NCBI GenBank assembly: GCA_015521735.1
Contig: WANQ01000018.1
Coordinates: forward strand, 1-64,000
Direction: 5' to 3'
Origin: Pyrodictiaceae archaeon
GTDB lineage: Archaea > Thermoproteota > Thermoprotei_A > Sulfolobales > WANQ01
DNA: 64,000 nucleotides
Each line of letters starts with the position of its first letter. Position 1 is the first letter of the stretch. Both the position numbers and the translations under genes were made by a program. Below the pieces are notes generated by a model that was not told the DNA's origin, did no database searches, and worked only from the letters and a program-made list of their open reading frames with translations. Shown piece by piece: positions 26,513 through 47,519 of the stretch.

Positions 26513-26552
26513 AACTTACACCTTAACCAATACCTACGTGATTTATCATTTT

Positions 26553-26562
26553 AAATTTATAG
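26553..26562 (-). promoter_or_regulatory. TATA box of the transaldolase-like gene
   Basis: Read on the minus strand, CTATAAATTT lies about 45 nt before TTG 26512. Transcription would start near 26528, leaving a short leader of about 15 nt that includes GGTGTAAG. It forms half of a divergent promoter region shared with the PfkB kinase. Confidence 0.5.
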
Positions 26563-26662: not shown

Positions 26663-27580
26663 TTGAGAAGAGATGATATAGTCTTGCTAGATGTATGCGC
26701 CTTCGGCCATATTACACGTGAATCAGAGGAATGGAGAGGGCTTAAAAGAGAGTTTACCGCTGGTCCACCATACTTCTTCTCACTAGCTCTTAGACGTCTT
26801 GGCAATAACGTCATGGTTGTAACTAAGCTAAACCCTGCTGATAAGGATATTTTAACTGAACTTGAAAGGGAAGGTATAAGGATAGTTTTAAGGAAAAGTG
26901 CGAGAACTTCATCGTTTCATACAGTTTATGGTAAAAGCCTTGATGAAAGATACTTAAAGGTAATATCAGTTGCTGACCCATTCACTGTTGATGATCTTGA
27001 ATATTGCGAACCCTCTAAGTACATCTATATCGGCCCACTAACTACTAGGGATTTCGATCTAGAGTTCCTAGTAAGGGCTCGTAGAAAGGCTCCAGTAGTT
27101 CTTGATGTTCAAGGATTTACACGTAAGGTCGTTGGCGATAGGATAGAATATGTTGACTGGAATTGGAAACTTGAAGGATCTAAGTACGTTGACATATTTA
27201 AAGCTGATACTAATGAAGCTCGAATACTTACTGGCCTAAATGAACCAGTAGAAGCTTTAAAAGAAATATTAAAGTGGGGTCCTAAAGAAGTACTAATTAC
27301 ATCAGCTAAAGGCGTATTCCTAGGAGTTAAGGGTGTAGGAGTATTCTTTGCACCATTCATTGTTGAGGAAATACGTGGTAGAGTTGGTAGAGGTGATACC
27401 TGTACTGCTGCATATGTCCACGCAAGACTTCGTGGAATGAACTTCAAAGACGCAGTTAAATTTGCTGCAGCAGCTACATCGCTAAAGCTAGGATACCAAG
27501 GACCTCTAAGGAATAGTGAGAGAGAAGTACTAGAATACATCAAGGAAAAGTATATGGAAATTAATGTTAGGATAGAATAG
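26663..27580 (+). CDS. PfkB-family carbohydrate kinase (GRGDT-type)
   Basis: A 305-residue ribokinase-fold sugar kinase. The anion-hole/catalytic motif is RGRVGRGDTCTAAYVHARLRG (Asp in GRGDT, read here as its parts), a ribokinase group C variant in which Gly-Arg-Gly-Asp replaces the commoner GAGD. The N-terminal GG signature is weak (TAGPPYFFSLALRRLG). This variant includes archaeal inositol- and nucleoside-type kinases; the substrate cannot be assigned. It is divergent from the transaldolase-like gene and followed by a glycerophosphodiesterase. Its position next to the inositol cluster makes an inositol or keto-sugar-acid kinase worth testing. Confidence 0.75.
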   Translation: MRRDDIVLLDVCAFGHITRESEEWRGLKREFTAGPPYFFSLALRRLGNNVMVVTKLNPADKDILTELEREGIRIVLRKSARTSSFHTVYGKSLDERYLKVISVADPFTVDDLEYCEPSKYIYIGPLTTRDFDLEFLVRARRKAPVVLDVQGFTRKVVGDRIEYVDWNWKLEGSKYVDIFKADTNEARILTGLNEPVEALKEILKWGPKEVLITSAKGVFLGVKGVGVFFAPFIVEEIRGRVGRGDTCTAAYVHARLRGMNFKDAVKFAAAATSLKLGYQGPLRNSEREVLEYIKEKYMEINVRIE

Positions 27581-27728: not shown

Positions 27729-28667
27729 ATGATGTATACCCGTAAACACATACCTATAATAGTGGCTCATAGGGTTAATAGTCGTCGTAAAATAAAGCAC
27801 TATATCTTTAACAATATAGTTGATGCCATTGAATTAGATTTTATTAAATCGCCTAGCAATGGAAGTATAGTATTACAACATGTAGACGAAGACTACGTCA
27901 TAAGAGACTTCATAACGAGAAACGAGTCAGAATTCCTGGACAATGTAAAACTAGGTTTTAATGTGAAATACTATGCTAAGCGTCTTACTTCCTGGATAAC
28001 TGATACACTAACACATAAACGTTGCAATAAGAAGCCTCGTAAATACTATATTGAGAGTATTCTAAGTTTTATAGATGAACAACTACGTAAAGCTAATCGT
28101 AGCATAACTATAATAATTGACTTAAAGGCTAAAGGTGTAGCTAAGGAACTAGCTAGGGCTCTTACAGAGTTTCCAATACGTAATGCCAAGTTATTTATAT
28201 CATCTAAGTATCATAGTGAATTAGCTAAAATTAAGCAATTAGCACCACATGTTAAAGTACTTGCTTCATTTGATGGTGAACCTATAAACATATCAGAGTA
28301 TCTTAAAAGTCTGGGTATGGATGGTGCTAGTGTTAGGGCAGCATTCGTTGACAAGAACCTTGTTAACGAGCTACACAAGCATGGATTAATTTTAGCTGTA
28401 TGGACTGTTAATGATGTGGGTATGGCTAGGCATCTCGCTAGATTAGGCGTTGACATGATAATAACCGATATACCTGAGATTATACGTAAGGTCTTAGAAC
28501 TTGATGAAGAATATAGAAGTATGCAGGATGAAATAGATCTCGACCGTTATGCTGGGCAAAGTGAGGGTAGAGTTGTTATAGGAGGACTTGAACATATGTT
28601 CGGATACGAGTTAGGGCATCAGAACGAATTTAGTGAAGAAAAGAAAAAACGTGGAAGCTCTATTTAG
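27729..28667 (+). CDS. Glycerophosphodiester phosphodiesterase family protein
   Basis: A 312-residue GDPD TIM-barrel enzyme. The catalytic/metal residues are visible as IIVAHRVNSR (His-Arg), AIELDF (Glu, Asp) and IVLQHVDED (second His). The C-terminal barrel signature is AVWTVNDVGMARHLARLG followed by VDMIITDIPE. It hydrolyses glycerophosphodiesters, for example glycerophosphoinositol, to glycerol phosphate and the head group. Two consecutive ATGs (27729 and 27732) occur at the start. A charged tail after residue 260 is not part of the barrel. Its proximity to inositol catabolic genes suggests a role in releasing inositol from archaeal phospholipid head groups (inference). Confidence 0.8.
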   Translation: MMYTRKHIPIIVAHRVNSRRKIKHYIFNNIVDAIELDFIKSPSNGSIVLQHVDEDYVIRDFITRNESEFLDNVKLGFNVKYYAKRLTSWITDTLTHKRCNKKPRKYYIESILSFIDEQLRKANRSITIIIDLKAKGVAKELARALTEFPIRNAKLFISSKYHSELAKIKQLAPHVKVLASFDGEPINISEYLKSLGMDGASVRAAFVDKNLVNELHKHGLILAVWTVNDVGMARHLARLGVDMIITDIPEIIRKVLELDEEYRSMQDEIDLDRYAGQSEGRVVIGGLEHMFGYELGHQNEFSEEKKKRGSSI

Positions 28668-28699: not shown

Positions 28700-29707
28700 T
28701 TACTTGAACCCTGGCTTACGTATATTCACTACTTCCTTATTAACTAGTGTTGGCGGTATTTCTCCCTTATAGAATGCTATTAGGTTTTCAGCTACAAGTT
28801 CAGCCATACGGTGTCTTGTTTCATATGTTGCTGAGCCTATGTGTGGTAGGAGTACTACGTTCTTGAATGCTGTTATTGGGTGGTTGGGGTCTAAGGGCTC
28901 TTGTTCGTGCACGTCTAAGCCTGCTCCACGTATCCATCCCTCACGTAGTGCTTTTACAAGTGCGTCAGTGTCTATTACTGCACCTCTAGCAGTGTTTACT
29001 ATTATTGCTCCTTTCTTCATCTTCTTTAGTCTCTCCTCATTTATGAGGTGATAGGTCTCCTTAGTTAATGGCACGTGTATTGATACTATGTCTGCTTCTT
29101 TTAACAAGTCATCTAGTTCACGGTATTCTATGCCCATTTTCTCTTCTAGGTCTTTTCTACGGAACTTGTCATAGTATATTACTTTCATTCCAAAGGCTTT
29201 ACCAAATTCTGCTACACGCGATCCTATTCTACCAAGACCTATTATTCCTAGAGTCTTACCCTGAAGTTCTACTCCTAGCATCATCTTTGGATGCCAGCCA
29301 GTTTGAAGTCTCCACCACTCACCCCATCTTACGAAGTGGTCTGCTTCTACTATTCTCCTAGCAACAGCCATTAGTAGTGCCCATGTTAGCTCAGCTGTAG
29401 CCTCTGTTAGTACTCCAGGTGTATTGGTTACGTATATTCCAAGCCTAGTAGCACATTCTATGTCGATGTTATCGTAGCCTACAGCATATTGGGCTACTAT
29501 TCTTAACCTCTTTGCTTGTTGTAGTAGGTTACAGTCTATTTTATCAGTTAACAATGTCCCGAGTGCGTCAACCTCCTTAGCCTTCTGTAACAAAACCTCA
29601 TATGGTGGTGGCTGATAACGATCCCATACCTCAACATCATAGTATTCTTCAAGCTTCTTTATAACATCTGGGAATAGCTCTCTGGTTATGAATAACTTAG
29701 GTTTCAT
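28700..29707 (-). CDS. gyaR: D-2-hydroxyacid dehydrogenase (glyoxylate/hydroxypyruvate reductase)
   Basis: A 335-residue dehydrogenase of the GyaR type. ATG 29707 is preferred (KPKLFITRELFPDV is the usual N terminus, GGTGTAAG upstream); an extension to 29746 is unlikely. The NAD-binding GLGRIGSRVAEF, catalytic Arg in NTARGAVIDT, Glu in DVHEQEPLD and His in LPHIGSAT are all present. It reduces glyoxylate or hydroxypyruvate, or oxidises glycerate. It lies at the downstream end of the minus-strand inositol cluster and could handle a three-carbon product of sugar-acid breakdown (inference). Confidence 0.87.
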   Translation of the reverse strand: MKPKLFITRELFPDVIKKLEEYYDVEVWDRYQPPPYEVLLQKAKEVDALGTLLTDKIDCNLLQQAKRLRIVAQYAVGYDNIDIECATRLGIYVTNTPGVLTEATAELTWALLMAVARRIVEADHFVRWGEWWRLQTGWHPKMMLGVELQGKTLGIIGLGRIGSRVAEFGKAFGMKVIYYDKFRRKDLEEKMGIEYRELDDLLKEADIVSIHVPLTKETYHLINEERLKKMKKGAIIVNTARGAVIDTDALVKALREGWIRGAGLDVHEQEPLDPNHPITAFKNVVLLPHIGSATYETRHRMAELVAENLIAFYKGEIPPTLVNKEVVNIRKPGFK

Positions 29708-29942
29708 CTTAAACTTACACCAAGTAACCATTACGCATGGGATCATATTTTAATTTTACCAAAATAATTTAAGACAAAGTATTAAAGCAAGACACTATAT
29801 AGGCTAAAATCTTGAGAACATATTATTCCACCTCTAGTTCCAGAATTAAAGGAACGTTAAAAGTGTAATTGAGTATAGTGGAGTAGTAATCTTCCTATAA
29901 TAAGGTTGGGTGTTAGTTTAAGTGAAAAACAATTTAACTAGG

Positions 29943-31157
29943 TTAGGGTTTTATTGTTATCTTACCATCTATTCTTTTATGTCCTCTTTCGAACGCCTCT
30001 AGTGCTTGTGTTAGCTTGAATCTACTTGTTATTATCTGTGTCATGTCTATTTTACCAGCTGCCATTAGCCTTATAACGTTCCTGAATGTACCCCATCCTG
30101 AGTGTCCTTGGCTTCCAAATACTTGTGCTCTTCTAACCTGTAGTACTTCTAGGTATATGGGTACTTCTTGTGGTGCTCTTCCTATCCATGTAATCTTTGC
30201 GCCAATGCCTAGGCTCTTAAGCATTTGAGGTAATGTGTGTTCGGGAGCTCCAGCTGCTTCTACGTGCATGTCTGCTCCTTCTCCACCAGTTACATCCATT
30301 ATCTTCTCCCATGGCTCTACTCCCTTATTCTTAAGCTCTATTGGGTCGAATACGTAGTCTGCTCCAATCTTCTTAGCTAGTTCTTTTCTAACAGGGCTTA
30401 TTTCGAATGCTATTACTAGTCCTGCTCCAGCCGCCTTAGCTAAAGCTATAGCTGCTAAGCCTATGGGTCCTGCACCCCATACTACAACGTATCCTCCAGG
30501 CTTGAAGCCTCCAGCACGATTGAATATTGCGTGGTAGGCTACTGATGTAGGTTCAACTAGGCTACCGGCTTCAAAGGCTTTGTCCTCGCTACGATATCTC
30601 TCAGCTATGGAGTCTATTTTCCACAAGTACTTTTCATGAGGTATTAAGACGTATTCAGCCATAGCGCCGTCATGGGTGAAGCCTAGTTCACCATACTCTA
30701 GGTCTGCTGGATCATTAAGTCTAGTACAATGGTTAACGTAGCTTAGCCTACAAGCAGTACACTCACCACACCAGAGCATTTCCTCAGAAGTAACCATGTC
30801 TCCAGGCTTAACCATTTGTACTTGTGGTCCAACCTCTTCTACAACACCACTAAACTCGTGGCCTATTACGACAGGTGTTTTAACTAGTCCTGGATAAATC
30901 ATGTAGCCATCCTTATCTGTTTCAACAAAGTGTAGATCACTACCACATATACCTACAGCTTTAACCCTAATGAGAACCTGCTTACCCTTAGGCTTAGGTA
31001 TTGGCTTCTCCTCAAGCTTAATCCTAGGATTATACCAGACCTTATTACCCTCCCTAACCTTACGTGTCTTCTTCTCTGCTTCAGTTATAGCATAACCTGG
31101 CCTAGGCTTAAAGTCTGCGTATAGAACAAGAGCTAACATCTTATCTTTTTCGGGCAA
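29943..31157 (-). CDS. iolM: Zn-dependent MDR dehydrogenase, IolM-like (scyllo-inosose 3-dehydrogenase)
   Basis: A 404-residue medium-chain dehydrogenase starting with TTG 31157 (GGTGAAAG upstream). Catalytic zinc residues are in VGICGSDLHF and GHEFSG, and structural-zinc cysteines in LWCGECTACRLSYVNHC. The Rossmann motif is VVWGAGPIGLAAIAL. The N terminus (MLALVLYADFKP) and the EEMLWCG and VRRAQVFGSQGHSGWGTF segments agree with the T. maritima IolM family, which oxidises 2-keto-myo-inositol to the 3-dehydro product. The surrounding IolG-, IolN-, IolO- and UxaE-like genes support that role. Other polyol substrates remain possible. Confidence 0.7.
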   Translation of the reverse strand: MPEKDKMLALVLYADFKPRPGYAITEAEKKTRKVREGNKVWYNPRIKLEEKPIPKPKGKQVLIRVKAVGICGSDLHFVETDKDGYMIYPGLVKTPVVIGHEFSGVVEEVGPQVQMVKPGDMVTSEEMLWCGECTACRLSYVNHCTRLNDPADLEYGELGFTHDGAMAEYVLIPHEKYLWKIDSIAERYRSEDKAFEAGSLVEPTSVAYHAIFNRAGGFKPGGYVVVWGAGPIGLAAIALAKAAGAGLVIAFEISPVRKELAKKIGADYVFDPIELKNKGVEPWEKIMDVTGGEGADMHVEAAGAPEHTLPQMLKSLGIGAKITWIGRAPQEVPIYLEVLQVRRAQVFGSQGHSGWGTFRNVIRLMAAGKIDMTQIITSRFKLTQALEAFERGHKRIDGKITIKP

Positions 31158-31328
31158 ACACTTTCACCCAATAAACCATTGAGAAAATACGTAATTTTAT
31201 ACTTTACCCAGATAAACGAAGGATTTATCCATGATAAACACTGTTAAATACTTTTAAAATGATAAATAGCATTAAGCTATACCTTACTATAGCAGGGTGT
31301 AGGGAAGGAAAAGAGAAAAATAGAAGAG

Positions 31329-32108
31329 TTAAGCTCTTGTTCTACGCTGTAGTTCTTCAGGTGGTAGTCTATGTGCTATGACGTCTATTATTTCTTCTGG
31401 AGTAGCTAGGTCTTTCGGTATGTCCAATACCTTGTGGCCACGATCTAGTACGACTATTCTATCAGCTACAGAGTATACATGGTATATGTTGTGCGATATT
31501 ATTATGCTACTAATACCCTTCTTCTTTAAATCCAATACGTACTCTAATACTCTCTCGCTTTCCTTAATGGACAGTGCTGATGTAGGCTCGTCTAAGATTA
31601 CTAGTTTAGCGCCAAAGTGTACTGCTCTAGCAATAGCTATTGACTGTCTCTCACCACCAGACATTTTGCCAACAATCATTTCTGGGTCACGTCTCTTTAT
31701 ACCAATATCTTCTAAGAGCTTCTTCGTTAATTCCCTCATCTTTTTCTTATCAAGTATTTTTATGAATCCTACCTTCTTATACACTTCTCTATTCAAGAAT
31801 AGGTTTCGGTAAACATTCATGTAGGGTACTAGCGCCATATCCTGGTAGACTATTTCTATACCTAGTTTACGTGCATCGGCAGGTGACTTGAATCTTACTT
31901 CACGTCCCTCAAAGAATATCCTGCCCTCATCTGGCTGATGGTATCCTACTATTATTTTAGCTAGAGTAGATTTTCCTGCACCATTATCTCCTACAAGTCC
32001 TACAACTTCACTATAGCCTACGTGGAAGTCTACTTTATTTAATGCTACTATTGGGCCAAACCTCTTAACAATACCCTTCATTTCAAGTAGATGTTTAGGC
32101 TTACTCAC
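31329..32108 (-). CDS. CUT2-type sugar ABC transporter ATPase
   Basis: A 259-residue single-domain ABC ATPase of the ribose/inositol (RbsA-like) class. The Walker A is GDNGAGKSTL, the signature MSGGERQSIAIARA, the Walker B LVILDEPTSAL, and the H-loop IIISHNIYH. Canonical RbsA has two fused ATPase domains (about 500 residues); this is the half-size form that would dimerise. It overlaps the permease gene by 8 nt and follows the binding-protein gene in the same direction. The transporter lies inside the inositol catabolic cluster, so inositol is the expected substrate (inference). Confidence 0.85.
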   Translation of the reverse strand: MSKPKHLLEMKGIVKRFGPIVALNKVDFHVGYSEVVGLVGDNGAGKSTLAKIIVGYHQPDEGRIFFEGREVRFKSPADARKLGIEIVYQDMALVPYMNVYRNLFLNREVYKKVGFIKILDKKKMRELTKKLLEDIGIKRRDPEMIVGKMSGGERQSIAIARAVHFGAKLVILDEPTSALSIKESERVLEYVLDLKKKGISSIIISHNIYHVYSVADRIVVLDRGHKVLDIPKDLATPEEIIDVIAHRLPPEELQRRTRA

Positions 32109-33060
32109 GTCTACTCAACCTCAAGTTAATTATACCAGCAATTATTAGCAACACACCAACGAATCCAATGTACCAGTATGCTGGAGCACCCGCCATAATT
32201 AATCCTACTCTTATCTCACCTATAAGGAATGCTCCCAACGAGGCACCAGCAACAGTTCCAACACCACCAGCTAATGAGCAACCACCTATGACTGATGATG
32301 CTATAGCTTCTAGTTCTAGACCCATACCTGCTACTGGTTCAACAACCTTGAACCTAGACATAGCTATAAGCCCAGCTAGTGCAGCCATAACGCTACTTAA
32401 CACGAAGTTAATGGTTTTAACCTTAGCAACATTAATACCTAGAGCACGTGCTGTCTCCGGTGCACCTCCAACAGCTTGAACCCAGTTACCGTATGGTGTA
32501 GACGTTAATATGAAATGGAATATTGCTGCTAGTATTAGGAACCATAAACCAGAAATCCTTAGATCGTATAGTATTGGTGCTGAGAGAGCTGCTAGTTCTG
32601 GAACATTGACTTCAAGTCTAACTGGGAAACCCTTAGTGATAGCCAATAATACTCCTCTAATAAACCACATCATACCTAGTGTTGTTATGAATGACGGTAT
32701 CTTACCCTTAATGGTGATTAAAGCATTAGCTAACCCTATTACTGCTGCTAAGCCTAGAGCAGCTAGGAATGCTACTATGAATGGCATGCCAGCATTTAAG
32801 AGCCATACAGCAAGTATTGATGAAGCTGCAAACACTGAGCCCACAGATAAGTCGAATTCACCTGCAATCATTAAGAACGATACACCAATAGCCATGATGC
32901 CTAGCTCAGCTGCAAGTGACACCATGCTGCTAAGCGCTGAAAGCGATGCAAATCTGGGGTTAAGGTATGTGAACACTATAGCCATACCAATAATTGATAA
33001 TATTACTCCTAGCTCCATGTATCTTGTAATCATTTTAACTCTAATACTTGGCAACAACAA
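32101..33060 (-). CDS. CUT2-type sugar ABC transporter permease
   Basis: A 319-residue RbsC-like permease with about eight to ten membrane helices. The class signature AGEFDLSVGSVFAASS (residues about 66-81) and the ALGINVAKVKTINFVLSS and SVIGGCSLAGGVGTVAG segments are clear. Three TTG codons follow AAGGTGG at the start (33060, 33057, 33054), so the exact start is uncertain by a few residues. It is coupled to the ATPase gene and separated from the binding-protein gene by 142 bp, which may allow higher expression of the binding protein. Confidence 0.86.
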   Translation of the reverse strand: MLLPSIRVKMITRYMELGVILSIIGMAIVFTYLNPRFASLSALSSMVSLAAELGIMAIGVSFLMIAGEFDLSVGSVFAASSILAVWLLNAGMPFIVAFLAALGLAAVIGLANALITIKGKIPSFITTLGMMWFIRGVLLAITKGFPVRLEVNVPELAALSAPILYDLRISGLWFLILAAIFHFILTSTPYGNWVQAVGGAPETARALGINVAKVKTINFVLSSVMAALAGLIAMSRFKVVEPVAGMGLELEAIASSVIGGCSLAGGVGTVAGASLGAFLIGEIRVGLIMAGAPAYWYIGFVGVLLIIAGIINLRLSRRE

Positions 33061-33202
33061 CCCACCTTCTACACATTCAAACTATCATACTAGAAACCTC
33101 TACTATGCATGTAAGACTAAAATGCTGGTAGAAGTATTAGCGGGTATGTAAAAAAGGGTTTTGTTTAAGGTAAAAACCAATTAGAATCCCAAGTTCAACA
33201 GT

Positions 33203-34339
33203 TTAGGCTCCGCCAGTCTCCTTAATCTGCTTCTCAACTAGTCCTAACAAGTTCTTATCAATTACAGTTGGTCCTGTAGGCACATGTTCAGGTGGCATGA
33301 TACCGTACTTAACGTATAGGTACATGAATACTACTGGTAGGAATCCTTGAGCAAATGGCTGTTGGCTAACAGCTGCAATAACTATATCGTTCTGTATACC
33401 TTCTAGTATCTTGTCGTCAACGTCTACTGTTGCTACGTAGACCTTACCCTTAAGACCCATGTCTTGTATGAGCTGCATTGCTGGGTGTGCTCCTAGTGGT
33501 CCTAGAGTGAATATTACTTCTACATCTGGGTTTGCTTCAATGTAGGATTTCATGATCTCGTAGGCCTTGGTTGTATCAGTGGTTATGTCTAGTTTCTCTG
33601 GAACATAGTCAGCTCCAGCCTCCTTGAATGCATCCTGTATACCCTGAGCTCTAAGCTCTAGGCCTACATGGCCTACCTCGTGAATACCTATGAATGCTAG
33701 CTTTGGTAATCTACCATACTTTTCTTGGAACCACTTTATCACGTACTTTGCTAGCTTGTAACCAGCCTGGTACTCGTCTTGGCCAACATATGATAGATAT
33801 GGTATTCTCTCCTCAGGAGGTCTTGGATCATAAACGTTGACAGCTATAACTGGTATACCTTGCTGAATAACTTTTCTCAAGGGCTCATCTAAGGCCTTGT
33901 AGTCGGTAATAGTTATTATTATTCCATCTGGTTTTGCTGCAGCAGCACTCTCTAATGCATCAACAAGCCATTTAATTGAGAACTTCTCTGGACCCTGGTA
34001 GATAACTTTTACTCCTAGGAGCTCACCAGCTAGCTCAGCACCCTTAATTACGGGTGCCCACCATGGGTCAGCTGGACCACCATGCGATATATAGTAGAAT
34101 GTGTACTCGTATTCTTTCTTAGCAGGTGCTGTGGCTGTTACAGTCTCTGTAACAGTAACTGTTTGGGGTGCTGCCCCAACAGTAGTAGTTACAGTAGTTG
34201 TTACAGTTGTAGTTTTAGCTGGAGCAGCCTGCATACCAACAAAGTAACCAGCAATGATGCCGATGATTAGTAGGACTATTGCTATTCCAGCCCAAGCAGT
34301 TGTTGATAAAGCTTTTCTTAAAATTGGTGTGTAACCCAT
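33203..34339 (-). CDS. Membrane-tethered CUT2-type sugar-binding protein
   Basis: A 378-residue periplasmic-binding-fold (RbsB-like) protein. An N-terminal membrane anchor (about residues 15-36) is followed by a Thr/Val linker (TTTVTTTVTTTVG), then a type I binding domain (YTFYYISHGGPADPWW, PDGIIITITDY, PVIAVNVYD, FTLGPLGAHPA, VATVDVDDKIL). It presents sugar to the adjacent permease/ATPase. Located between the IolG-like dehydrogenase and the permease, it is the likely specificity determinant for inositol or a related polyol (inference). The linker closely resembles that of the CUT1 binding protein in this window. Confidence 0.83.
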   Translation of the reverse strand: MGYTPILRKALSTTAWAGIAIVLLIIGIIAGYFVGMQAAPAKTTTVTTTVTTTVGAAPQTVTVTETVTATAPAKKEYEYTFYYISHGGPADPWWAPVIKGAELAGELLGVKVIYQGPEKFSIKWLVDALESAAAAKPDGIIITITDYKALDEPLRKVIQQGIPVIAVNVYDPRPPEERIPYLSYVGQDEYQAGYKLAKYVIKWFQEKYGRLPKLAFIGIHEVGHVGLELRAQGIQDAFKEAGADYVPEKLDITTDTTKAYEIMKSYIEANPDVEVIFTLGPLGAHPAMQLIQDMGLKGKVYVATVDVDDKILEGIQNDIVIAAVSQQPFAQGFLPVVFMYLYVKYGIMPPEHVPTGPTVIDKNLLGLVEKQIKETGGA

Positions 34340-34374
34340 AATACGGACACCACTTATACTAAGTAAAATTGTTG

Positions 34375-34384
34375 GTTTAAAAAG
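34375..34384 (-). promoter_or_regulatory. TATA-like element upstream of the CUT2 transporter genes
   Basis: On the minus strand, CTTTTTAAAC lies about 36-45 nt before ATG 34339, with GGTG close to the start. It suggests the transporter genes have a promoter of their own, separate from the dehydrogenase gene upstream. The rest of the 207-bp spacer (34340-34546) holds nothing else I recognise. Confidence 0.45.
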
Positions 34385-34546
34385 TTTAGCATAATTGTAC
34401 TAGTTAGAATAGTTCAATCAAGTAGAATATTATTGCGATATTTTATTTAAGAAAAGATTGTTTCGAGTAGTTTTCCTAAGTTAGTAGAGATTGACATGTT
34501 TTATAAGGGAAAAACATGTATATAATTATTGCGTTTAATTGCATTA

Positions 34547-35569
34547 CTACAACTCTACTTTAATACTTCTACCTTCCCTATATGATTTCCAGCATGCTTC
34601 GGCTATCTGAACAGTTCTGAGACCATCTATTACTGTTACTGGTGGTTCCTTGTCTTCTACTATGGATTTTATGAATGCTTTAAGCTCCTCTATGTATGCT
34701 TCATAGAATCTCTTCTCAAACCATGGTGCTCCAAAGTATGTTAGTCCCTGCTTAGTACCTATAGCAAACATATTGTCTATATTACTTCCAACATATATTA
34801 CTCCTTCAGAGCCGTAGACTTCTGTTCTAAGCTCGTATCCGTATGGGAACTTCCTGGTACCATGTATTAGTCCTTGTGCACCATTATCAAACTTAAAAGC
34901 TATGCTTACGACGTCTAAGTCTCCTTTAGCTTTAAGTTCATCGTATATGTAGTTTCCTCCAATAACGTAGACTTCTACTATTTCGCCTACCAGGAATCTA
35001 GCCATATCGAAGTCATGTGACAACATGTCTAGGAATATGCCACCACTCTTCTTTGGATCAGCTGCCCAGCTTGGAGGTGCACCAGGGTCTCTAGCAACTG
35101 CTATATACGCTATTGGTTTCCCTATTTCACCATTCTCTATACGCTTCTTAGCGTTAAGGTAAGCGTAGTCGAATCGTCTATTGAATCCTACTTGTAGTTT
35201 TAATCCATGCTTCTTAACAGCTGCTACTACTTCTTTTGCTTCACTAACTGTAACCGTCATAGGCTTTTCAACGAATACGTGCTTACCTGCTTCAAGAGCC
35301 TTAATTATCATGTCCTTGTGTAGAAAGGTTGGTACACTTATAACTACAGCATCTATTTTCTCATTGGCCAACATTTTATCGTAGTCAGTATACCATTCAA
35401 CTCCTAGTTTCTCCCCAACACTTCTAGCAAGGTTTTCAATTACATCTGATACGGCTACTAGTTCAGCGTTTTCAACCTTATACTTTAATATCTCTGCATG
35501 GAGCCTACCTATCCTACCTAGACCTACTACACCTACACCTACCTTAGAATTAGGCAAAACCAATACCAC
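34547..35569 (-). CDS. iolG: Gfo/Idh/MocA-family oxidoreductase, IolG-like inositol 2-dehydrogenase
   Basis: A 340-residue NAD(P)-dependent sugar/polyol dehydrogenase. The N-terminal Rossmann motif is GVVGLGRIGRLHAE (residues about 13-26), the EKP motif is FVEKPMTVT (catalytic Lys), and the active-site Asp/His lie in GGIFLDMLSHDFDMARF. In the known pathway IolG oxidises myo-inositol to 2-keto-myo-inositol (scyllo-inosose). The assignment to inositol rests on motif match plus the IolM/N/O-like neighbours. Related members oxidise glucose, galactose or scyllo-inositol. It sits between the UxaE-like epimerase and the CUT2 transporter. Confidence 0.77.
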   Translation of the reverse strand: MVLVLPNSKVGVGVVGLGRIGRLHAEILKYKVENAELVAVSDVIENLARSVGEKLGVEWYTDYDKMLANEKIDAVVISVPTFLHKDMIIKALEAGKHVFVEKPMTVTVSEAKEVVAAVKKHGLKLQVGFNRRFDYAYLNAKKRIENGEIGKPIAYIAVARDPGAPPSWAADPKKSGGIFLDMLSHDFDMARFLVGEIVEVYVIGGNYIYDELKAKGDLDVVSIAFKFDNGAQGLIHGTRKFPYGYELRTEVYGSEGVIYVGSNIDNMFAIGTKQGLTYFGAPWFEKRFYEAYIEELKAFIKSIVEDKEPPVTVIDGLRTVQIAEACWKSYREGRSIKVEL

Positions 35570-35646
35570 CCCTAAGGAGGTACACGTACTTACTCTAAGT
35601 CAAATTGTAGTGGAAGGGGAAAAACGTGTTTCTACTTATTAAATCA

Positions 35647-37104
35647 TTAGGACTCTACTAGGTTGTAGTATACTATGTTACCTTCAAATCCTAGCTTATC
35701 AATTATTCTCAGTGTTAGCTCATAGGCCTCTCTAGTATACTCTTCTCTTAGCTCTCTATCCTCACTGTAAAGCTCCAATAATCTGTCGCGGAGATATCTT
35801 TTACCCTTCTCGTCTACTACTGCTTGGAATATGAAGAAGTAGTGTCTGAAGAAGTCTGCTCTAGGGTTTCTTTCATAGCTTTTATCTACTTTAACTATTT
35901 CCTCGTATTCCTTCAGCATTTCCTCTAGGTGTAGAGAGTATAATCCTGTCTTTGATTTAACGTATTCTCTTACCCTGTCAAGTACTGTGTCAAATATTTC
36001 TTCATACAATCTTCTAGGCTTAGAGCCTTGAGGGAACCTGCTCATTACCTCGAGTAGTAGTTGTATGTATACGCCAGAAACCTTGTATTTAACCATGCCG
36101 TTGGTTACGTCTCGAATAGTCTCCCATACACCGTATCCTTTATCGCTATAGGGGTGGGCTCCACTACCCGAGTGGAACGATAATAGTACTCCTAGGCTAC
36201 GTGCTACACTATGTAGCTCGTCTATTTTACCAGCTAGCTCGTCTAAGTCGCCATCATAGTCTTCACGCTTCTTAAACCCTACGTTGGGTGCTATGAAATC
36301 TATTCTTAGTCCTAATCTATCGAGTTCTCTCACGTAGAAGAATAGGTCTTTAGGTCTAGTTTCAACTGGTAACTCGTCTAATGCGACCTCAACACCGAAT
36401 TCACGTTCACCTAGATACTTTCTAGCTATCTTGTATACTTCTAAGACGTACTTAATGCTTTCAATGTATTTTAATGCAAGTCTTGCTACATCTAGCTTAG
36501 TAAACTTTAACACATAGATGTTCCCGGTATCGGATATGAAGTAGAATCTTCTACCAACATATGTTTTCTCTAACTCCCTCCTATAGTCACCGTCAATTTT
36601 ATCCTCATAGAGACTCATTACTTCTTCGCTACTCTTCTCATCTACTCCTAAGTCTATGAGCTCGCATGTATCAATTGTTACAAAGTCTACTCCACTAACC
36701 CTACTTACTTCCCTAAACTCCTCCTCAATATATCTAAGTGATTCCTCTATTTCCTCCTTGGTTAACCCGTACTCGAATCCTCCACCTGCAATTCTCTTAA
36801 TAGCTCTTTCAGGTGAAGCCATTAATGATACGTGGTCTGCTTCAACTTCTACTACTACTCCATAGTAGTCGGCGTAGCGTGTAGCCTTGGTTATGTATTC
36901 TTCTATTGATGTACCCGTATGCCCCCTCAATAAGTCCTTGGCTTCTTTAATTATTCTTGTTGGAGCTGTTTCACGGTGGTATGAGAGCATTAGTGTTCCA
37001 GCTACATCTCTAGCCTTGAAGGCTTTTAGTACTGGTGGAACAACGATATCGGGTAAACGTATACCTATAGCTGGGTGAGGTATTGGTCCAAGATACTTTC
37101 TCAT
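35647..37104 (-). CDS. uxaE: UxaE-like tagaturonate/fructuronate epimerase
   Basis: A 485-residue soluble protein. I prefer ATG 37104 because GGTGCTAGGT precedes it; ATG 37116 is in frame. It matches the UxaE (PF16257) pattern as I remember it: VALDELPVETRPKDLFFY, the FIAPNVGFKKREDYDGDL segment, VARSLGVLLSFHSGSGAH, and a KYKVSGVYIQLLLEV block. UxaE interconverts D-tagaturonate and D-fructuronate. In the T. maritima inositol route IolO yields D-tagaturonate, so UxaE would be the next step. The gene lies between the IolG-like and TIM-barrel isomerase genes in the same direction, consistent with one pathway. Confidence 0.72.
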   Translation of the reverse strand: MRKYLGPIPHPAIGIRLPDIVVPPVLKAFKARDVAGTLMLSYHRETAPTRIIKEAKDLLRGHTGTSIEEYITKATRYADYYGVVVEVEADHVSLMASPERAIKRIAGGGFEYGLTKEEIEESLRYIEEEFREVSRVSGVDFVTIDTCELIDLGVDEKSSEEVMSLYEDKIDGDYRRELEKTYVGRRFYFISDTGNIYVLKFTKLDVARLALKYIESIKYVLEVYKIARKYLGEREFGVEVALDELPVETRPKDLFFYVRELDRLGLRIDFIAPNVGFKKREDYDGDLDELAGKIDELHSVARSLGVLLSFHSGSGAHPYSDKGYGVWETIRDVTNGMVKYKVSGVYIQLLLEVMSRFPQGSKPRRLYEEIFDTVLDRVREYVKSKTGLYSLHLEEMLKEYEEIVKVDKSYERNPRADFFRHYFFIFQAVVDEKGKRYLRDRLLELYSEDRELREEYTREAYELTLRIIDKLGFEGNIVYYNLVES

Positions 37105-37194
37105 ACCTAGCACCATTTAAGTTAAGGGTAGTGGGGAGGAGATAGTAAAAACCTGTTAGGTTAAAATTATTTGTTTACTATGGCTTGTACTATC

Positions 37195-38124
37195 TTACAA
37201 GTTGTTTTCTAGGAATATCTCGTAGGCTCTCATTAGTACTCCTTTAGCTGAGTTAACTACCTCTAAGGGATGCTGACCTTCTTCAGGTTTTACTTCAAAG
37301 CTTACTGCTCCACGATACTTTATGTCGTGTAGTACTTGTAGTAGTTCTGCTACTTCTTTCTCTGTGTTTAATGCTCCTGGACGATAGAATCCTGGATGCC
37401 AGTCGTAGAGCTTGTCGTCTACTTTCTTAGCACAACCTATGTGTATATGGCCTAGGAGGTCAGCGTATGGTTTAAGATCTTCTGGTTTCTCGCCGAGGAG
37501 TGGGCCGTGGCTTAAATCCCACATCAAGTATACGTTCTTGTAGTTAGCTCTTATTTCTTCTACTACTTTTGCTGAAAAGTCTATTGGTCCAAGTAGTCTC
37601 TTCTTATCCCATTGGTAGTCGAATGTCTCAACAAGTACTGGTATATTGTACTCCTGTGCTTTCTCAGCCATAGCGCTTACAGTCTTAATGAATGATTGAA
37701 CAGCCTTATCTTTTTCAGCTTCAACGTAAGGTCCTGAGCATAGTGCTACAGCCTTCATTCCACGTTTACCAGCTACTTCAACGCCTTTAACTAGTATTTC
37801 TTCAGCTTTCTTCCTCTCATCTTCGTTAACAGCACTTGGATTATACTTTTGTACTAGTACTTGTGGTTGTAAGCCCATAGAGAAGTCTATTCTTCTACCA
37901 GTCTTATCGACGTATTCCTTTAGTTTATTCCACTCAGCATCACTTATCCATGAGAGTTCTAGTAGGTCGAAGAACTTGTCATCTACTAGTATTCTTGTTT
38001 TCTCAGCTGCACCTTCATCTGACTTTAATAGCTCGGGGAATACCATGAATACTACTATTCCAACCTTATATGGGAACCTAGATACTATTTCAATATCTTT
38101 CTTTTCTATTCTGGTGTAGAACAT
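37195..38124 (-). CDS. Xylose-isomerase-like TIM-barrel protein
   Basis: A 309-residue protein of the AP endonuclease 2/sugar isomerase superfamily. ATG 38124 is preferred because GGAGATGA lies 5-9 nt upstream; ATG 38133 directly abuts that GGAG. Putative metal ligands are Glu in VLVETFDYQW, Asp in LMWDLSHGPL, His in LGHIHIGCAKK and Glu in VSFEVKPEEG, an arrangement typical of sugar epimerases and isomerases. It is not closely like the IolO-type neighbour. Its position in the middle of the cluster suggests an additional isomerisation step in the same pathway; the reaction is unknown. Confidence 0.72.
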   Translation of the reverse strand: MFYTRIEKKDIEIVSRFPYKVGIVVFMVFPELLKSDEGAAEKTRILVDDKFFDLLELSWISDAEWNKLKEYVDKTGRRIDFSMGLQPQVLVQKYNPSAVNEDERKKAEEILVKGVEVAGKRGMKAVALCSGPYVEAEKDKAVQSFIKTVSAMAEKAQEYNIPVLVETFDYQWDKKRLLGPIDFSAKVVEEIRANYKNVYLMWDLSHGPLLGEKPEDLKPYADLLGHIHIGCAKKVDDKLYDWHPGFYRPGALNTEKEVAELLQVLHDIKYRGAVSFEVKPEEGQHPLEVVNSAKGVLMRAYEIFLENNL

Positions 38125-38198
38125 GTATCTCATCTCCTAAGGAGTACTTCTACGATAATGGTTTCATCTAATTTATAATTTTAATTTTTCCATAATAG

Positions 38199-39008
38199 CT
38201 ACATTAGGAGTGGCTTCAATGTCTTAGCGCTTACGCTTAGCATTGTGTCTAGGTCTGGTTCTATTCTTGACTCTACACTCACGTAACCCTTATACCCTGT
38301 ACGTAGCAATCTATAGATTATTTTTTCCCAGTCTAGCATTCCCATACCTGGTGCTAGCCTATTACTATCAGCTACGTGAAAATGCCCTATATTACTACCT
38401 GCTCTAAGTATGGCTTCGTAGACGTCTTTTTCTTCAAGCATCATGTGGAATGTATCGAATAGTATCTTTACATTCTCATACCTACTAACTAGTTCTATGG
38501 CATCATCTAGTCTGTTAACCAGGTCTGTTTCATACCTATTTAGCGGCTCAAAAACCAAGATAACACCATGTTCTCCAGCATATCTGTCAAGTATTTTTAG
38601 TGATTCCTCTAGTCTCTTTAGAGCACTATTACAGTTGTCTTCGCATTTACCTCTAGCTAATCCTACGACAACCTTGTATGCTTCTAGTTTTTCTGCAACT
38701 TCAATATACTTCTTAAAGAACTCGATAGCTTTACTTCTAATATCAGTGCTAGGACTTGATAAACTATACTTGTATCTAAGGTAGGATAGACCAGTAGATA
38801 TAGCTGAAATCTCTAATCCATAACTCTTAGTCTTAGCTTTTAGCTCACCTACATCTACTTCATTTGGGTTAGAGATATTGTATTCTACACCATCATATCC
38901 ATAGCCTTGAAGCTTCCTTAAAACATCTTCTAATGGAGCTTTGATTACAACATAGAATTCTACACCCTTCGCAAGAGCGTGTACAGCTGAGAGTTTTAGT
39001 CTAGGCAT
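38199..39008 (-). CDS. iolO: D-tagatose 3-epimerase-like TIM barrel, IolO-like 5-keto-L-gluconate epimerase
   Basis: A 269-residue sugar epimerase, the same length class as T. maritima TM0416. The metal/catalytic residues are Glu in VLVFEPLNRYETD, Asp and His in ILFDTFHMMLEE, His in GHFHVADSNR and Glu in GYVSVESRI. TM0416 (IolO), a D-tagatose 3-epimerase-related enzyme, converts 5-keto-L-gluconate to D-tagaturonate. The motif match and the IolN-like gene just upstream support the same role here, although ketohexose epimerisation cannot be excluded. Confidence 0.7.
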   Translation of the reverse strand: MPRLKLSAVHALAKGVEFYVVIKAPLEDVLRKLQGYGYDGVEYNISNPNEVDVGELKAKTKSYGLEISAISTGLSYLRYKYSLSSPSTDIRSKAIEFFKKYIEVAEKLEAYKVVVGLARGKCEDNCNSALKRLEESLKILDRYAGEHGVILVFEPLNRYETDLVNRLDDAIELVSRYENVKILFDTFHMMLEEKDVYEAILRAGSNIGHFHVADSNRLAPGMGMLDWEKIIYRLLRTGYKGYVSVESRIEPDLDTMLSVSAKTLKPLLM

Positions 39009-39101
39009 GAACTAAAACCTCTTCATACACTAAGAAGACGTGTATAGAGAGGATAGAAAAAAGAGATTAAGCTAGTACACGCATTTGGGCTACTATTGTG
39101 G

Positions 39102-40061
39102 CTAGCCTTTAGGTTCAACGTACTCTTTAGGCTTATTGTAGAATAAGTCTTCCCAGTCAATCCAAGTCCTCGGTACCGTTCCTGGAGGATAGTTCTCTTT
39201 CAACCAGTTTACGAACTCTATTACTCTCTCAATAACCTTGTTTACTAGTACTTCTCCTTTCTTAGGATCAGCTAGTTTAGGCCATCCTACAAAGCCTTTC
39301 TTATAATAGTAGAATTCTGGTAGGTGGCTTACATCGTACCAATTGAATGGTTTATCTGGGAATACATTGCCTGCAGCGTTAACCCATTTACCTGGTATTA
39401 CTCTTACTACACCCCATTCTCCTTCCTTCTTCAATGACTCCTCGTCTATTAGGTCTGGTGCTACATACCATGTAACGCTTGCCTCGACCTCATCTGCGTG
39501 TATGAATGGTGTTTCTAGTTTTACTCCTGGCGCTATTTCTTCACCTGTACCAGCTTTTCTTAGGAGATCTTGAACCCATTTCCACCAGCTTGTTACGAGG
39601 ATTAGTGCGTGTACATCTTTCTCTATTATTGCTATGTCCTTAGCTATTGGTAGTACGTATTCTTGTCCATGGCTATTCCATACTATTATTTTCTTAAACC
39701 CAGCATTTGATAGCCACTTGATGATGTCTGCAACGTATTCTATAAGTGTTGTAGCTCTTACTGGTATAGTTCCACGCATACCATAGTGGTGGCTCGGGTG
39801 GCTACCATAAGCTATTGGGAGTGCTACAGTACACCCAGTTTCATAGCAGACTCGTTCAGCAATACTAACACCTATAATAGTATCCTCTCCTAAGGGCTCA
39901 AAGGGTCCGTGAGCTTCAGTTGAACCTACTGGTAAGAATACTATGTCGTTTTCCTTAACTCTTTCCTCAAGTTCCTTCATAGTCATTTGGTCTAAGTATA
40001 TCTTCTTACCCCACTTGTTTAGAACAAGCTTACCCCAACGCTCACTTAATGGTTTAGACAA
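39102..40061 (-). CDS. iolN: Creatininase-fold hydrolase, IolN-like (3-dehydro-scyllo-inosose hydrolase)
   Basis: A 319-residue creatininase-superfamily metal hydrolase starting with TTG 40061 (GGAGAAAG upstream). Metal-site segments are FLPVGSTEAHGPF, PLGEDTIIG, GSHPSHHYGMRGTIPV, VWNSHGQEYVLPIA and FIHADEVEASVTW. They correspond to the creatininase pattern with family-specific changes (NSHGQE for NGHGGN). IolN opens the ring of the diketo-inositol made by IolM to give 5-keto-L-gluconate. It is the first gene of the minus-strand run and has its own TATA element upstream. The C-terminal YPPGTVPRTWIDWEDLFY segment is not part of plain creatininase. Confidence 0.72.
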   Translation of the reverse strand: MSKPLSERWGKLVLNKWGKKIYLDQMTMKELEERVKENDIVFLPVGSTEAHGPFEPLGEDTIIGVSIAERVCYETGCTVALPIAYGSHPSHHYGMRGTIPVRATTLIEYVADIIKWLSNAGFKKIIVWNSHGQEYVLPIAKDIAIIEKDVHALILVTSWWKWVQDLLRKAGTGEEIAPGVKLETPFIHADEVEASVTWYVAPDLIDEESLKKEGEWGVVRVIPGKWVNAAGNVFPDKPFNWYDVSHLPEFYYYKKGFVGWPKLADPKKGEVLVNKVIERVIEFVNWLKENYPPGTVPRTWIDWEDLFYNKPKEYVEPKG

Positions 40062-40156: not shown

Positions 40157-40166
40157 GTTTAAAAAC
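40157..40166 (+). promoter_or_regulatory. TATA box of the two-domain cyclophilin-like gene
   Basis: GTTTAAAAAC is expected to start transcription near 40186, leaving a leader of about 28 nt with GGTGTAGGA at 40201-40209, 4 nt before TTG 40214. Confidence 0.5.
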
Positions 40167-40213
40167 ATGTTTGTATCTGAGCTAATATAGAGTTCTCCTA
40201 GGTGTAGGATTCC

Positions 40214-40951
40214 TTGCTACTAGAAATACTAGATAAGGATAAGGGGTCATCATTCATAGTTAAACTCTACAGAAACCTAGAGGAATGGCGTAAAGCCATG
40301 CCATTTGAAGCTGAACTTAATGTGTGGAAAGAGGAAGTATATTTTTCTACACCAGTAGAACTAGAGTTTAAGCCAGGTGAACTAGTATATAGAGTAGAGT
40401 CTGGCCACGTCTACTATTGGCCTCCAGGTAAGGCTATGTGCTTATTCTATGGTTTAAGTGAAGCATATACTCCAGTAGCTCCAATAGGCTTACTTGTTGG
40501 ACCATTGAATAGTCTAAGAATAGTGGAGTCAGGAGATAAAGCTACAGTTAAAGAACACGTAGTCTACAAGGAGTACTCTGGAATAGTCAATGAACTTGTA
40601 AAAAGAGGATACTTGGCGGGAACACCGTTAAGTGAGGATACTAGGATTATAGTAGCTTCAAAGTATATTGGTAAGCATAGGTTATCATTCAATATTTATG
40701 TCGAGGATTACGGCTATCACGTTGAAACTGAAGGTATAGTACCCTATCTCGGAGACTACCCATCCATAGCCATTCTACGTAGACTTAAAGAGCTAGTGAA
40801 GGCTACAAGACTACTTAGAGCTGATATATCAGAAGACAACTTTATTGTAGTTACAAGCGGTGTTTACAGCTTAGATGAGCTGTGGGAAGCTATAGAGGAG
40901 TTGGAGAGATACTATCCACTCGTATTCGAGGAAGTGTTTAGAATGAGTTGA
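40214..40951 (+). CDS. Cyclophilin-like-fold protein with extra C-terminal domain
   Basis: A 245-residue protein starting with TTG 40214. Residues about 10-112 match the cyclophilin-like (PF04126/TM1367-type) fold, with the marker EEVYFSTPVEL and HVYYWPPGKAMCLFYG. Residues about 113-245 form an unrelated alpha/beta domain (IIVASKYIGKHRLSFNIYVE and IAILRRLKELVKATRLL are parts of it). The function of the fold is unknown; these proteins lack prolyl-isomerase residues and may bind a small ligand. It is divergent from the IolN-like gene and convergent with the CUT1 ATPase. A single-domain paralogue flanks the other side of the CUT1 operon. Confidence 0.7.
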   Translation: MLLEILDKDKGSSFIVKLYRNLEEWRKAMPFEAELNVWKEEVYFSTPVELEFKPGELVYRVESGHVYYWPPGKAMCLFYGLSEAYTPVAPIGLLVGPLNSLRIVESGDKATVKEHVVYKEYSGIVNELVKRGYLAGTPLSEDTRIIVASKYIGKHRLSFNIYVEDYGYHVETEGIVPYLGDYPSIAILRRLKELVKATRLLRADISEDNFIVVTSGVYSLDELWEAIEELERYYPLVFEEVFRMS

Positions 40952-40984: not shown

Positions 40985-42073
40985 TTAGATTATTGCCTTC
41001 TCGGTATACTTGTCGAAGAAGTGTATTTTCTCTTCAGGGAATACTAGTTTAACCTTTTGTCCAGGTTCAAGCTTAAGTCCAGGTGTTGATAGTATCTTTA
41101 GTAATGTGTTATCTACTTTAACGTTTATTACAAGATCTCTGCCTAGAGGTTCTATGACGTATACAGTAGCGTCAATAGCATTATCTACTTCACCACTAGT
41201 GATAACTCTAATATGTTCAGGCCTTATACCTAGTACTACGTCTGTAGACTTTGAAGCTACTAGTTCACCTAAATCCTTTGAAAGCTTTAGCTTTAAGCCT
41301 TCTGATTCAAAATAGTATTCACCGTTCTCTTCCTTAATACTTCCCTCAATGAAGTTCATTGGCGGGTTTCCTATGAATCCTGCTACGAATAGGTTTATGG
41401 GCTTATTGTATAGTACTTCTGGTTCAGCATATTGTTGTAGTCTTCCAGCTCTCATTACTGCTATTCTGTCTGCCATGCTCATTGCTTCTACTTGGTCGTG
41501 TGTAACATAGATTGTAGTTATCTTCAACTCCTTCTGAAGCCTCTTAATCTCAGCCCTCATCATTACTCTTAGTTTTGCATCAAGGTTGCTTAAGGGCTCG
41601 TCAAGTAGTAGAACATCGGGCTCTTTTACAAGAGCTCTACCAAGTGCTACACGCTGCTGCTGTCCACCTGAGAGTTGAGCTGGCTTACGGTTAAGCAAGT
41701 TGTCTATTTGTAGTAGTTTAGCTACCTCCTTAACCTTCTTATCTATTTCGTGCTTAGGCACCTTCTTTAATTTCAACGGGAACGCTATGTTGTCGTAAAC
41801 AGTCATGTGCGGGTATAATGCGTAGCTTTGGAATACCATTCCAATGTTACGATCCTTAGGTGGTAGATCTGTTACATCTACTTCATCAAACAGTATTCTA
41901 CCCTTTGTAGGCTTATATATTCCAGCTATCATCAACAGTGTTGTCGTCTTACCACAACCACTTGGGCCTAAGAGTGCTACGAATTCTCCATCTCTTACCT
42001 CTAAGTTTAAGTCTACTACAGCTTTTACTTTCCCGAAGAATTTACTCACATTATCGAGTGTTACCTTAACCAT
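40985..42073 (-). CDS. CUT1-type sugar ABC transporter ATPase (MalK/UgpC-like)
   Basis: A 362-residue ATPase of the CUT1 class. The Walker A is GPSGCGKTTTL, the signature LSGGQQQRVALGRAL, the Walker B LLLDEPLSNLD, and the H-loop TIYVTHDQ. The C-terminal regulatory/TOBE domain (about 240-362) contains VLGIRPEHIRV. AAGGTGATAAT just upstream of ATG 42073 is an excellent ribosome-binding site. It ends a four-gene operon with two permeases and a binding protein. ATPases of this class often serve several transporters. Confidence 0.88.
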   Translation of the reverse strand: MVKVTLDNVSKFFGKVKAVVDLNLEVRDGEFVALLGPSGCGKTTTLLMIAGIYKPTKGRILFDEVDVTDLPPKDRNIGMVFQSYALYPHMTVYDNIAFPLKLKKVPKHEIDKKVKEVAKLLQIDNLLNRKPAQLSGGQQQRVALGRALVKEPDVLLLDEPLSNLDAKLRVMMRAEIKRLQKELKITTIYVTHDQVEAMSMADRIAVMRAGRLQQYAEPEVLYNKPINLFVAGFIGNPPMNFIEGSIKEENGEYYFESEGLKLKLSKDLGELVASKSTDVVLGIRPEHIRVITSGEVDNAIDATVYVIEPLGRDLVINVKVDNTLLKILSTPGLKLEPGQKVKLVFPEEKIHFFDKYTEKAII

Positions 42074-42171
42074 ATATTATCACCTTCTAGGAGGAGATTC
42101 CACTATCATAAGAATATTGTTTAGAGGGTATATTTGTTTAATTAAAAATACATTAAATTTAAGGTAATGGT

Positions 42172-43071
42172 TCATCTCTTTACACCGCCAACGTATATTC
42201 TTAGTAGTAGTTTCTGTGTTGTACTGAAGAATATTAGTGTTGGTATGGTGAAGAATAGTCCTACTGCTGCTAGCATACCCCAGTTAACGAACTTTAGCTC
42301 TCCTATCAAGTAGTATATTAGTACTGGCAATGTATAGTATTCTTCGCCTACAACATAGGTGTAGACTAGTAGAAATTCAGCCCACCCTGATAGAAATGCG
42401 AATATTGATATGGCTCCAATACCTGGGAGTACTAGTGGAAGGATAACACTTCTCCAAACCCTCCACCTAGTACAGCCATCTACTAGTGCAGCCCATTCAA
42501 GATCCCATGGTATTGCATCAAAGAAGCCCTTAATAATCCATGAGGCCATTGGTATTTCTAGTCCAGCCTTGATTATAATGATCCCTAGTAGTGTCATGTA
42601 GCCTTTACCGTAGAGCCCCATTTTGTTCAATATAATGAATAATGCTATTAGTAAAATAACACTGGGAAATGCGTGTAATGCTATAATGAACTGCATTAAC
42701 CCTATTCTACCAGGGAAGTTCATACGTGATAAAGCGTAACCAGCCATACTACTAATTAGTACCTCTAATGCTGCTACACCAAGTGCTAGGAATAGCGTGT
42801 TCATGGTTATAGGCCATATATTGGGATACTCCTTAAGCCCCATCTTAAACGGTGCCCATAGGAATTTCCAGTTCTCCAAGGTGAACACTTGTGGTATTAC
42901 ACCAAAGGTTACCTTAGCACTAAAGCTTTGGGCTAAAAGCCATAGGAACATCACCCAGACAGGTATTAAGGGTATAACAGCTACTACAATTACTATAACA
43001 TATTTTATTATTGTTCTTATCCGTGCATGCATTTTCCTTCTAGCCAATTCCTCACGTGAAAGCCTGGACAA
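42172..43071 (-). CDS. CUT1-type ABC transporter permease (MalG-like)
   Basis: A 299-residue permease with about six membrane helices and the EAA loop WAALVDGCTRWRVWRSVI followed by LPLVLPGI (residues about 200-225). A cytoplasmic basic N terminus (LSREELARRKMHARIRT) precedes helix 1. It starts with TTG 43071; the GGAGGTG that forms the last codons of the upstream permease serves as its ribosome-binding site, so the two permeases are translationally coupled (6-nt gap). Confidence 0.87.
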   Translation of the reverse strand: MSRLSREELARRKMHARIRTIIKYVIVIVVAVIPLIPVWVMFLWLLAQSFSAKVTFGVIPQVFTLENWKFLWAPFKMGLKEYPNIWPITMNTLFLALGVAALEVLISSMAGYALSRMNFPGRIGLMQFIIALHAFPSVILLIALFIILNKMGLYGKGYMTLLGIIIIKAGLEIPMASWIIKGFFDAIPWDLEWAALVDGCTRWRVWRSVILPLVLPGIGAISIFAFLSGWAEFLLVYTYVVGEEYYTLPVLIYYLIGELKFVNWGMLAAVGLFFTIPTLIFFSTTQKLLLRIYVGGVKR

Positions 43072-43077
43072 GAGAGC

Positions 43078-44067: not shown

Positions 44068-44231
44068 GGAATACTACACCCCACATATAGGGAGAGCATG
44101 GCTTTTTCACTTAGCCCTAATATTATTTATGATGTCGTTTACGTGGTGTATTATTCCTAGTAAGTTAGGGTGGGAGAACTGGTAAAAAACATATTTGTTA
44201 TATTATGTAGTTGGGCTTACACCTAAACTAT

Positions 44232-47504: not shown

Positions 47505-47519
47505 TAGGGAGTGAATAGT

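Follow-up and report, generated by a model that had tools for sequence, protein, structure and literature searches.

A stretch of 64,000 nucleotides from a Pyrodictiaceae archaeon (contig WANQ01000018.1, positions 1 to 64,000; the whole stretch is called the window below) carries a group of genes that may form an archaeal module for the breakdown of myo-inositol. The upper half of this module, taken alone, would lead from inositol through the enzymes IolG, IolM, IolN and IolO to the epimerase UxaE and is, judging by protein family tests and shared clustering, very probable. The full reading, upper and lower half together, we hold to be possible, with somewhat less than an even chance. The lower half is a proposed aldolytic ending built from a 727-residue transaldolase-family protein (tal727), a second enzyme with a sugar epimerase/isomerase fold (TIM2) and a reductase encoded at 28700; it draws on which genes occur together, on folds and motifs and on the lack of the enzymes usually found, and is about as tentative, if not slightly more so.

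The host genome (label G000, with the window on its contig C18) has a size of 2.03 Mb and a completeness assessed as 100%. Proteins were tested against curated NCBIfam cut-offs (in bits), Pfam and solved structures, and the families were surveyed in 229 genomes of the archaeal class, the host included. Absences are the outcome of family profile searches, and p-values are uncorrected for relatedness.

A sequence-only reading of the region had proposed that the inositol oxidation set of the Thermotoga type, together with UxaE, is present in an archaeon, and both the family tests and the shared clustering bear this out. All the open reading frames that it named were found at the positions it gave (Table 1). 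In the profile searches IolM and UxaE pass their cut-offs, whereas IolG and IolN stay slightly and IolO clearly under theirs. The zinc-ligand residues of IolM are invariant among 12 archaeal sequences; a structure match of IolM, the Thermotoga entry 3ip1, is not counted as evidence here. For IolG, IolN and IolO, the model of the corresponding Thermotoga pathway protein is the top match by a wide margin (for IolO, 225 bits vs 126 for the next NCBIfam model). The closest solved structure of IolO is TM0416 (2zvr, E 4e-46), and that of IolG is 3ezy (E 5e-70), which we take to be, probably, Thermotoga TM0414. The IolN-like protein shares 78-83% identity with other archaeal copies, and the IolN of a distant thaumarchaeal contig (L116) passes the cut-off of the same model with 302/245 bits. 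UxaE has a much closer relative than its Pfam family, namely the solved "isomerase" 9kcs (E 2e-137). In the proposed sequence of steps, IolG would oxidise myo-inositol to 2-keto-inositol and IolM would convert this to diketo-inositol; IolN would then open the ring, giving 5-keto-L-gluconate, which IolO would epimerise to D-tagaturonate and UxaE would pass on to D-fructuronate.

Next, the distribution of these genes. IolM is over its cut-off in 14 of the 229 genomes, that is, in the host and 13 others, and on the contigs of these genomes, many of which are short, we see the same partners in altered orders and on altered strands, mostly as reshuffled clusters. Scans of named genomes gave IolM relatives in Desulfurococcales, Bathyarchaeota, Thermofilaceae, Asgard, Brockarchaeota and Archaeoglobales as well as in the bacterial Chloroflexota, Armatimonadota and Bipolaricaulota; they are often accompanied by IolN, IolO and IolG. 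Since clustering in other gene orders recurs in many archaea (Thermoproteia, Bathyarchaeota and others), a chance grouping is excluded. The contig L116 holds in one run four CUT1 transporter genes, IolG, IolM, IolN, IolO, tal727, UxaE, a reductase of the 28700 type, a cyclophilin-like gene and TIM2. Because all of these stand there with the Iol genes, the module in the window most likely includes the CUT1 transporter, tal727 and the reductase. The limits first drawn for the cluster (28700-40061) do enclose the genes then named; its extent was drawn too narrowly, as the module runs beyond both ends (24329, 26663, 40985-45755 and 46506).

The archaeal IolM sequences form one group in a tree (Shimodaira-Hasegawa-like approximate likelihood ratio test, SH-aLRT, 96). 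Among our trees, which are quick searches without bootstrap, only that of IolO holds a T. maritima sequence, TM0416. There TM0416 lies inside the IolO family, within which the archaeal proteins make up a group of their own (support 92). As archaeal IolM and IolO both form archaeal groups, the cluster is, on the trees, not a recent bacterial import.

In Thermotoga the product of these steps is reduced to mannonate and then dehydrated to 2-keto-3-deoxygluconate (KDG). The claim of a set complete in the Thermotoga manner fails at this point. We did not find the mannonate dehydratase UxuA in the host genome by family search, with a positive T. maritima control; neither the UxuB/UxaB family (PF08125) nor the uronate isomerase UxaC was found in any of the 229 genomes (0/229 each), with T. 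maritima and other controls positive. Two substitutes were considered and rejected: a mannonate dehydratase of the MR_MLE type, as the sole MR_MLE match in the host genome is enolase, and a KDG aldolase adjoining the glycerate kinase gene of the host, as this neighbour scores as DapA.

What accompanies the upper pathway instead is tal727. Its AlphaFold model (predicted local distance difference test, pLDDT, 85) has a transaldolase fold with large additions, the top Foldseek matches are all transaldolases, and Schiff-base Lys371 together with Asn241, Gln318, Thr396 and Arg436 is invariant in 15 orthologues; the protein scores far under the transaldolase equivalog cut-offs. TIM2 is modelled with a confident epimerase/isomerase TIM-barrel fold and has its metal-binding Glu169, Asp206, His231 and Glu280 invariant in 17 orthologues, while the hydroxypyruvate isomerase model TIGR03234 gives 30/353 bits, under its cut-off. 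We propose that TIM2 is a hydroxypyruvate isomerase or a uronate isomerase. Transaldolase-type enzymes accept (3S,4R) ketoses, a configuration that fructuronate fits and tagaturonate does not, and it is this stereochemistry that would create the need for UxaE. On this scheme tal727 would cleave D-fructuronate to dihydroxyacetone and tartronate semialdehyde, or else pass the dihydroxyacetone unit to glyceraldehyde phosphate; TIM2 would turn tartronate semialdehyde into hydroxypyruvate, the reductase at 28700 would yield D-glycerate, and a glycerate 2-kinase, encoded in the host genome at C18:72213, 8 kb past the end of the window, would form 2-phosphoglycerate. That archaea possess such an aldolytic route for hexuronates and inositol, with tal727 cleaving D-fructuronate and with TIM2 and a glyoxylate-reductase-type enzyme yielding glycerate, we suggest with a shade more reserve than the reading of this one locus.

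The association of these genes can be quantified. We see tal727 in 16 of the 229 genomes and in 8 of the 14 with IolM (Fisher test, p 2e-7). TIM2 occurs in 21 genomes, among them 13 of the 14 with IolM (p 5e-15) and 15 of the 16 with tal727 (p 7e-18). The 28700-type reductase adjoins IolM or tal727 in many genomes. Seven Ignisphaera genomes (L141-L147) have tal727 and no IolM over the cut-off; within the locus stretch examined, TIM2 lies near tal727 in 7/7, UxaE in 5/7 and the reductase in 5/7. In one of these loci, L141, we identified as neighbours of tal727 a GH2 enzyme of the beta-glucuronidase type and a glycerate 2-kinase. Where an Ignisphaera genome has IolM as well as tal727 (two cases), the genes lie on separate contigs. 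Two side observations concern sequence integrity: at L141:6515-7967, in an Ignisphaera-type genome of 1.876 Mb on a single contig, the UxaE frame is split in two with TIM2 and tal727 alongside intact, and the tal727 match of L132 (G125:C2:210658-212790) has one internal TAG codon.

Several points weigh against the full reading. IolG, IolN and IolO miss their curated cut-offs. We did not find tal727 in 6 of the 14 IolM genomes, one of which is 96% complete, and therefore another ending must exist there. The matches of TIM2 to the IolO and hydroxypyruvate isomerase models are weak; its structural model fits 3-epimerases equally well, and the structure search did not settle the substrate. The glycerate 2-kinase at C18:72213 adjoins a DapA-type gene and lies outside the cluster. 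Finally, the fructuronate reductase of T. maritima is UxaD (PMC7953866), which may belong to another enzyme family, so that the absence of UxuB would leave a reduction possible.

This last point leads to an alternative in which the upper pathway is kept and the ending is the usual one: reduction and dehydration to KDG by other families, a pyrophosphate-dependent kinase of the TM0415 type and an aldolase, with tal727 and TIM2 serving elsewhere. The separate reductase of T. maritima speaks for it, as do the candidate TM0415-type kinase in the window and the pyrophosphate-using KDG kinase LguH, which in Luteolibacter acts after an IolO-like epimerase (PMC12632266). However, the missing UxuA and UxuB/UxaB, the lack of any MR_MLE match other than enolase and the fact that tal727 and TIM2 follow this pathway across genomes make it unlikely. 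A different way of accommodating TIM2 would be to let it replace UxaC and convert glucuronate to fructuronate, which tal727 would cleave, so that the module would serve hexuronates as well as inositol. The fold of TIM2 suits an isomerase, and UxaC is missing from the class, yet in one Ignisphaera genome TIM2 and tal727 have an enzyme of the beta-glucuronidase type as neighbour; on the other hand, TIM2 is kept in nearly all IolM genomes, where inositol requires no uronate isomerase. We regard this as rather unlikely, if still worth considering.

It may also be asked whether the substrate is inositol at all. The Iol names could reflect mere family resemblance and the cluster could act on another polyol or sugar acid, e.g. 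a rhizopine-like inosamine or L-gluconate, entering at or above 5-keto-L-gluconate. The substrate-binding protein in the cluster is nearest to a rhizopine family, three Iol proteins are under their cut-offs and the IolO-like LguG works in L-glucose breakdown (PMC12632266). Nevertheless, IolM, the enzyme that yields diketo-inositol, scores over its cut-off, and in many archaea an IolN-like hydrolase remains next to it; we consider another substrate quite improbable.

Table 1. Genes of the putative inositol module and its surroundings in the window
Feature	Position	Strand	Family evidence
tal727, 727-aa transaldolase-family protein	24329..26512	-	Pfam TAL_FSA (PF00923) 45/27 bits, cut-off passed
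PfkB kinase, candidate TM0415 (pyrophosphate-dependent) type	26663..27580	+	closest solved structure TM0415, E 6e-45
GDPD-family phosphodiesterase	27729..28667	+	Pfam GDPD 49.6 bits
Glyoxylate/hydroxypyruvate reductase-type D-2-hydroxyacid dehydrogenase	28700..29746	-	NF009714 612.7/455 bits
IolM, scyllo-inosose 3-dehydrogenase	29943..31157	-	NF041097 530.6/450 bits, cut-off passed
CUT2 sugar transporter ATPase, single domain	31329..32108	-	Pfam ABC_tran
CUT2 sugar transporter permease	32101..33060	-	Pfam BPD_transp_2 153 bits
CUT2 substrate-binding protein	33203..34339	-	nearest NCBIfam rhizopine binding protein, 178/420 bits, under cut-off
IolG-like inositol 2-dehydrogenase	34547..35569	-	TIGR04380 351.7/355 bits, slightly under cut-off
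UxaE-like tagaturonate/fructuronate epimerase	35647..37116	-	PF16257 104.7/27.1 bits over C-terminal two thirds, cut-off passed
TIM2, second sugar epimerase/isomerase-fold enzyme	37195..38133	-	PF01261 64.9 bits
IolO-like 5-keto-L-gluconate epimerase	38199..39008	-	NF041099 224.9/300 bits, clearly under cut-off
IolN-like creatininase-fold 3-dehydro-scyllo-inosose hydrolase	39102..40061	-	NF041098 237.4/245 bits, slightly under cut-off
Cyclophilin-like protein recurring in inositol clusters	40214..40951	+	PF04126 77 bits
CUT1 sugar transporter: ATPase, two permeases, binding protein	40985..45755	-	
PfkB sugar kinase	46506..47504	+	

The proposed myo-inositol module has its closest known counterpart in T. 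maritima, where the inositol pathway TM0412-TM0416 was reportedly described by Rodionova et al. in 2013. There as here, IolG, IolM, IolN and IolO are clustered, together with TM0415 there and a candidate kinase of its type here, and UxaE is available downstream; here, in contrast, the cluster is archaeal, has both CUT2 and CUT1 transporters and the additional tal727, TIM2, reductase, PfkB and cyclophilin-like genes, and UxuA, the UxuB/UxaB family and UxaC were not found in the searches above. The UxaE epimerase pathway for hexuronates in T. maritima is said to go back to Rodionova et al. in 2012. It has been summarised since (PMC6353982) and shares with our cluster the tagaturonate-fructuronate epimerase family PF16257, whereas the partners here are tal727 and TIM2, with the partners UxuB and UxuA not found. 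The L-glucose pathway of Luteolibacter LG18 (PMC12632266) likewise has an IolO-like epimerase to D-tagaturonate, combines it with a pyrophosphate-using sugar-acid kinase, for which the kinase at 26663 may be a parallel, but ends with reduction, dehydration and a 2-keto-3-deoxy-6-phosphogluconate (KDPG) aldolase. The canonical bacterial iol pathway also begins with an IolG-type inositol dehydrogenase, while its later steps are not in the window cluster; a 2022 survey found this canonical route so far restricted to bacteria (PMC9430895). In the open literature that we searched, neither an archaeal inositol pathway of this kind nor an aldolase of the kind proposed for tal727 is recorded. A conserved cluster of this kind would demonstrate the capacity of hyperthermophilic archaea to consume inositol, and the association of UxaE, tal727 and TIM2 is a concrete candidate for hexuronate metabolism without UxaC, UxuB and UxuA.

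Inositol is a building block of some lipids of hyperthermophilic archaea and, in some of these organisms, of heat protectants. The host genome encodes a myo-inositol-phosphate synthase, and the GDPD-type phosphodiesterase at 27729, weakly related to proteins of the inositol clusters L039 (35%) and L089 (26%), might free inositol from glycerophosphoinositol; given these two genes, it is possible that the inositol is self-made or lipid-derived. Inositol or a derivative would enter through the CUT2 and CUT1 transporters. The sugar ABC transporter that had been noticed inside the cluster is indeed there and is of the CUT2 type with a single-domain ATPase, whose homologues adjoin IolM in Desulfurococcales and Thermoflexus. 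All four parts of the CUT1 transporter recur in L116 and L089, both inositol clusters, with 47-62% identity, and some of the parts recur in L054, L055, L069 and L077. Homologues of the cyclophilin-like protein are found in the clusters L031, L033, L039 and L116, and the copies in L031 and L033, between UxaE and IolN, are short (132-133 aa).

The kinase at 26663-27580, which the sequence-only reading had missed, is closest to TM0415 and would thus be the fifth gene of the Thermotoga cluster. TM0415 uses pyrophosphate and has been shown to phosphorylate inositol, though with a poor Km, and its type is recognised by the signature Lys171, Phe221, Arg229, Arg232 and Met266 (PMC5931981); as read from alignments, the first four residues are kept here and Met266 is replaced by Leu (4/5). 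The other PfkB kinase, at 46506, may mark with its family a second pathway ending where it stands beside IolM: a PfkB kinase adjoins IolM in 4 of the 6 IolM genomes without tal727 (G029, G031, G054 and G114), the identity to the protein in the window being 42-46%. In the window (46506-48578), this kinase is followed after six bases by a glycerol-1-phosphate dehydrogenase (474.9/413 bits), an archaeal lipid enzyme.

As for candidate regulatory motifs, the sequence ATTTATCATTTTAAA occurs exactly twice in the window, at 26542-26555, where tal727 and the kinase at 26663 diverge, and at 31253-31266 upstream of IolM. We rejected it as a shared operator, since approximate matches are no more frequent than expected by chance and it was not found in relatives. 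The motif AACAHGTTTTT has 15 matches in the window vs 4 expected, and five of the gaps within the cluster contain similar sequences on the minus strand (34510-34520, 35620-35630, 37147-37157, 40161-40171 and 44185-44195).

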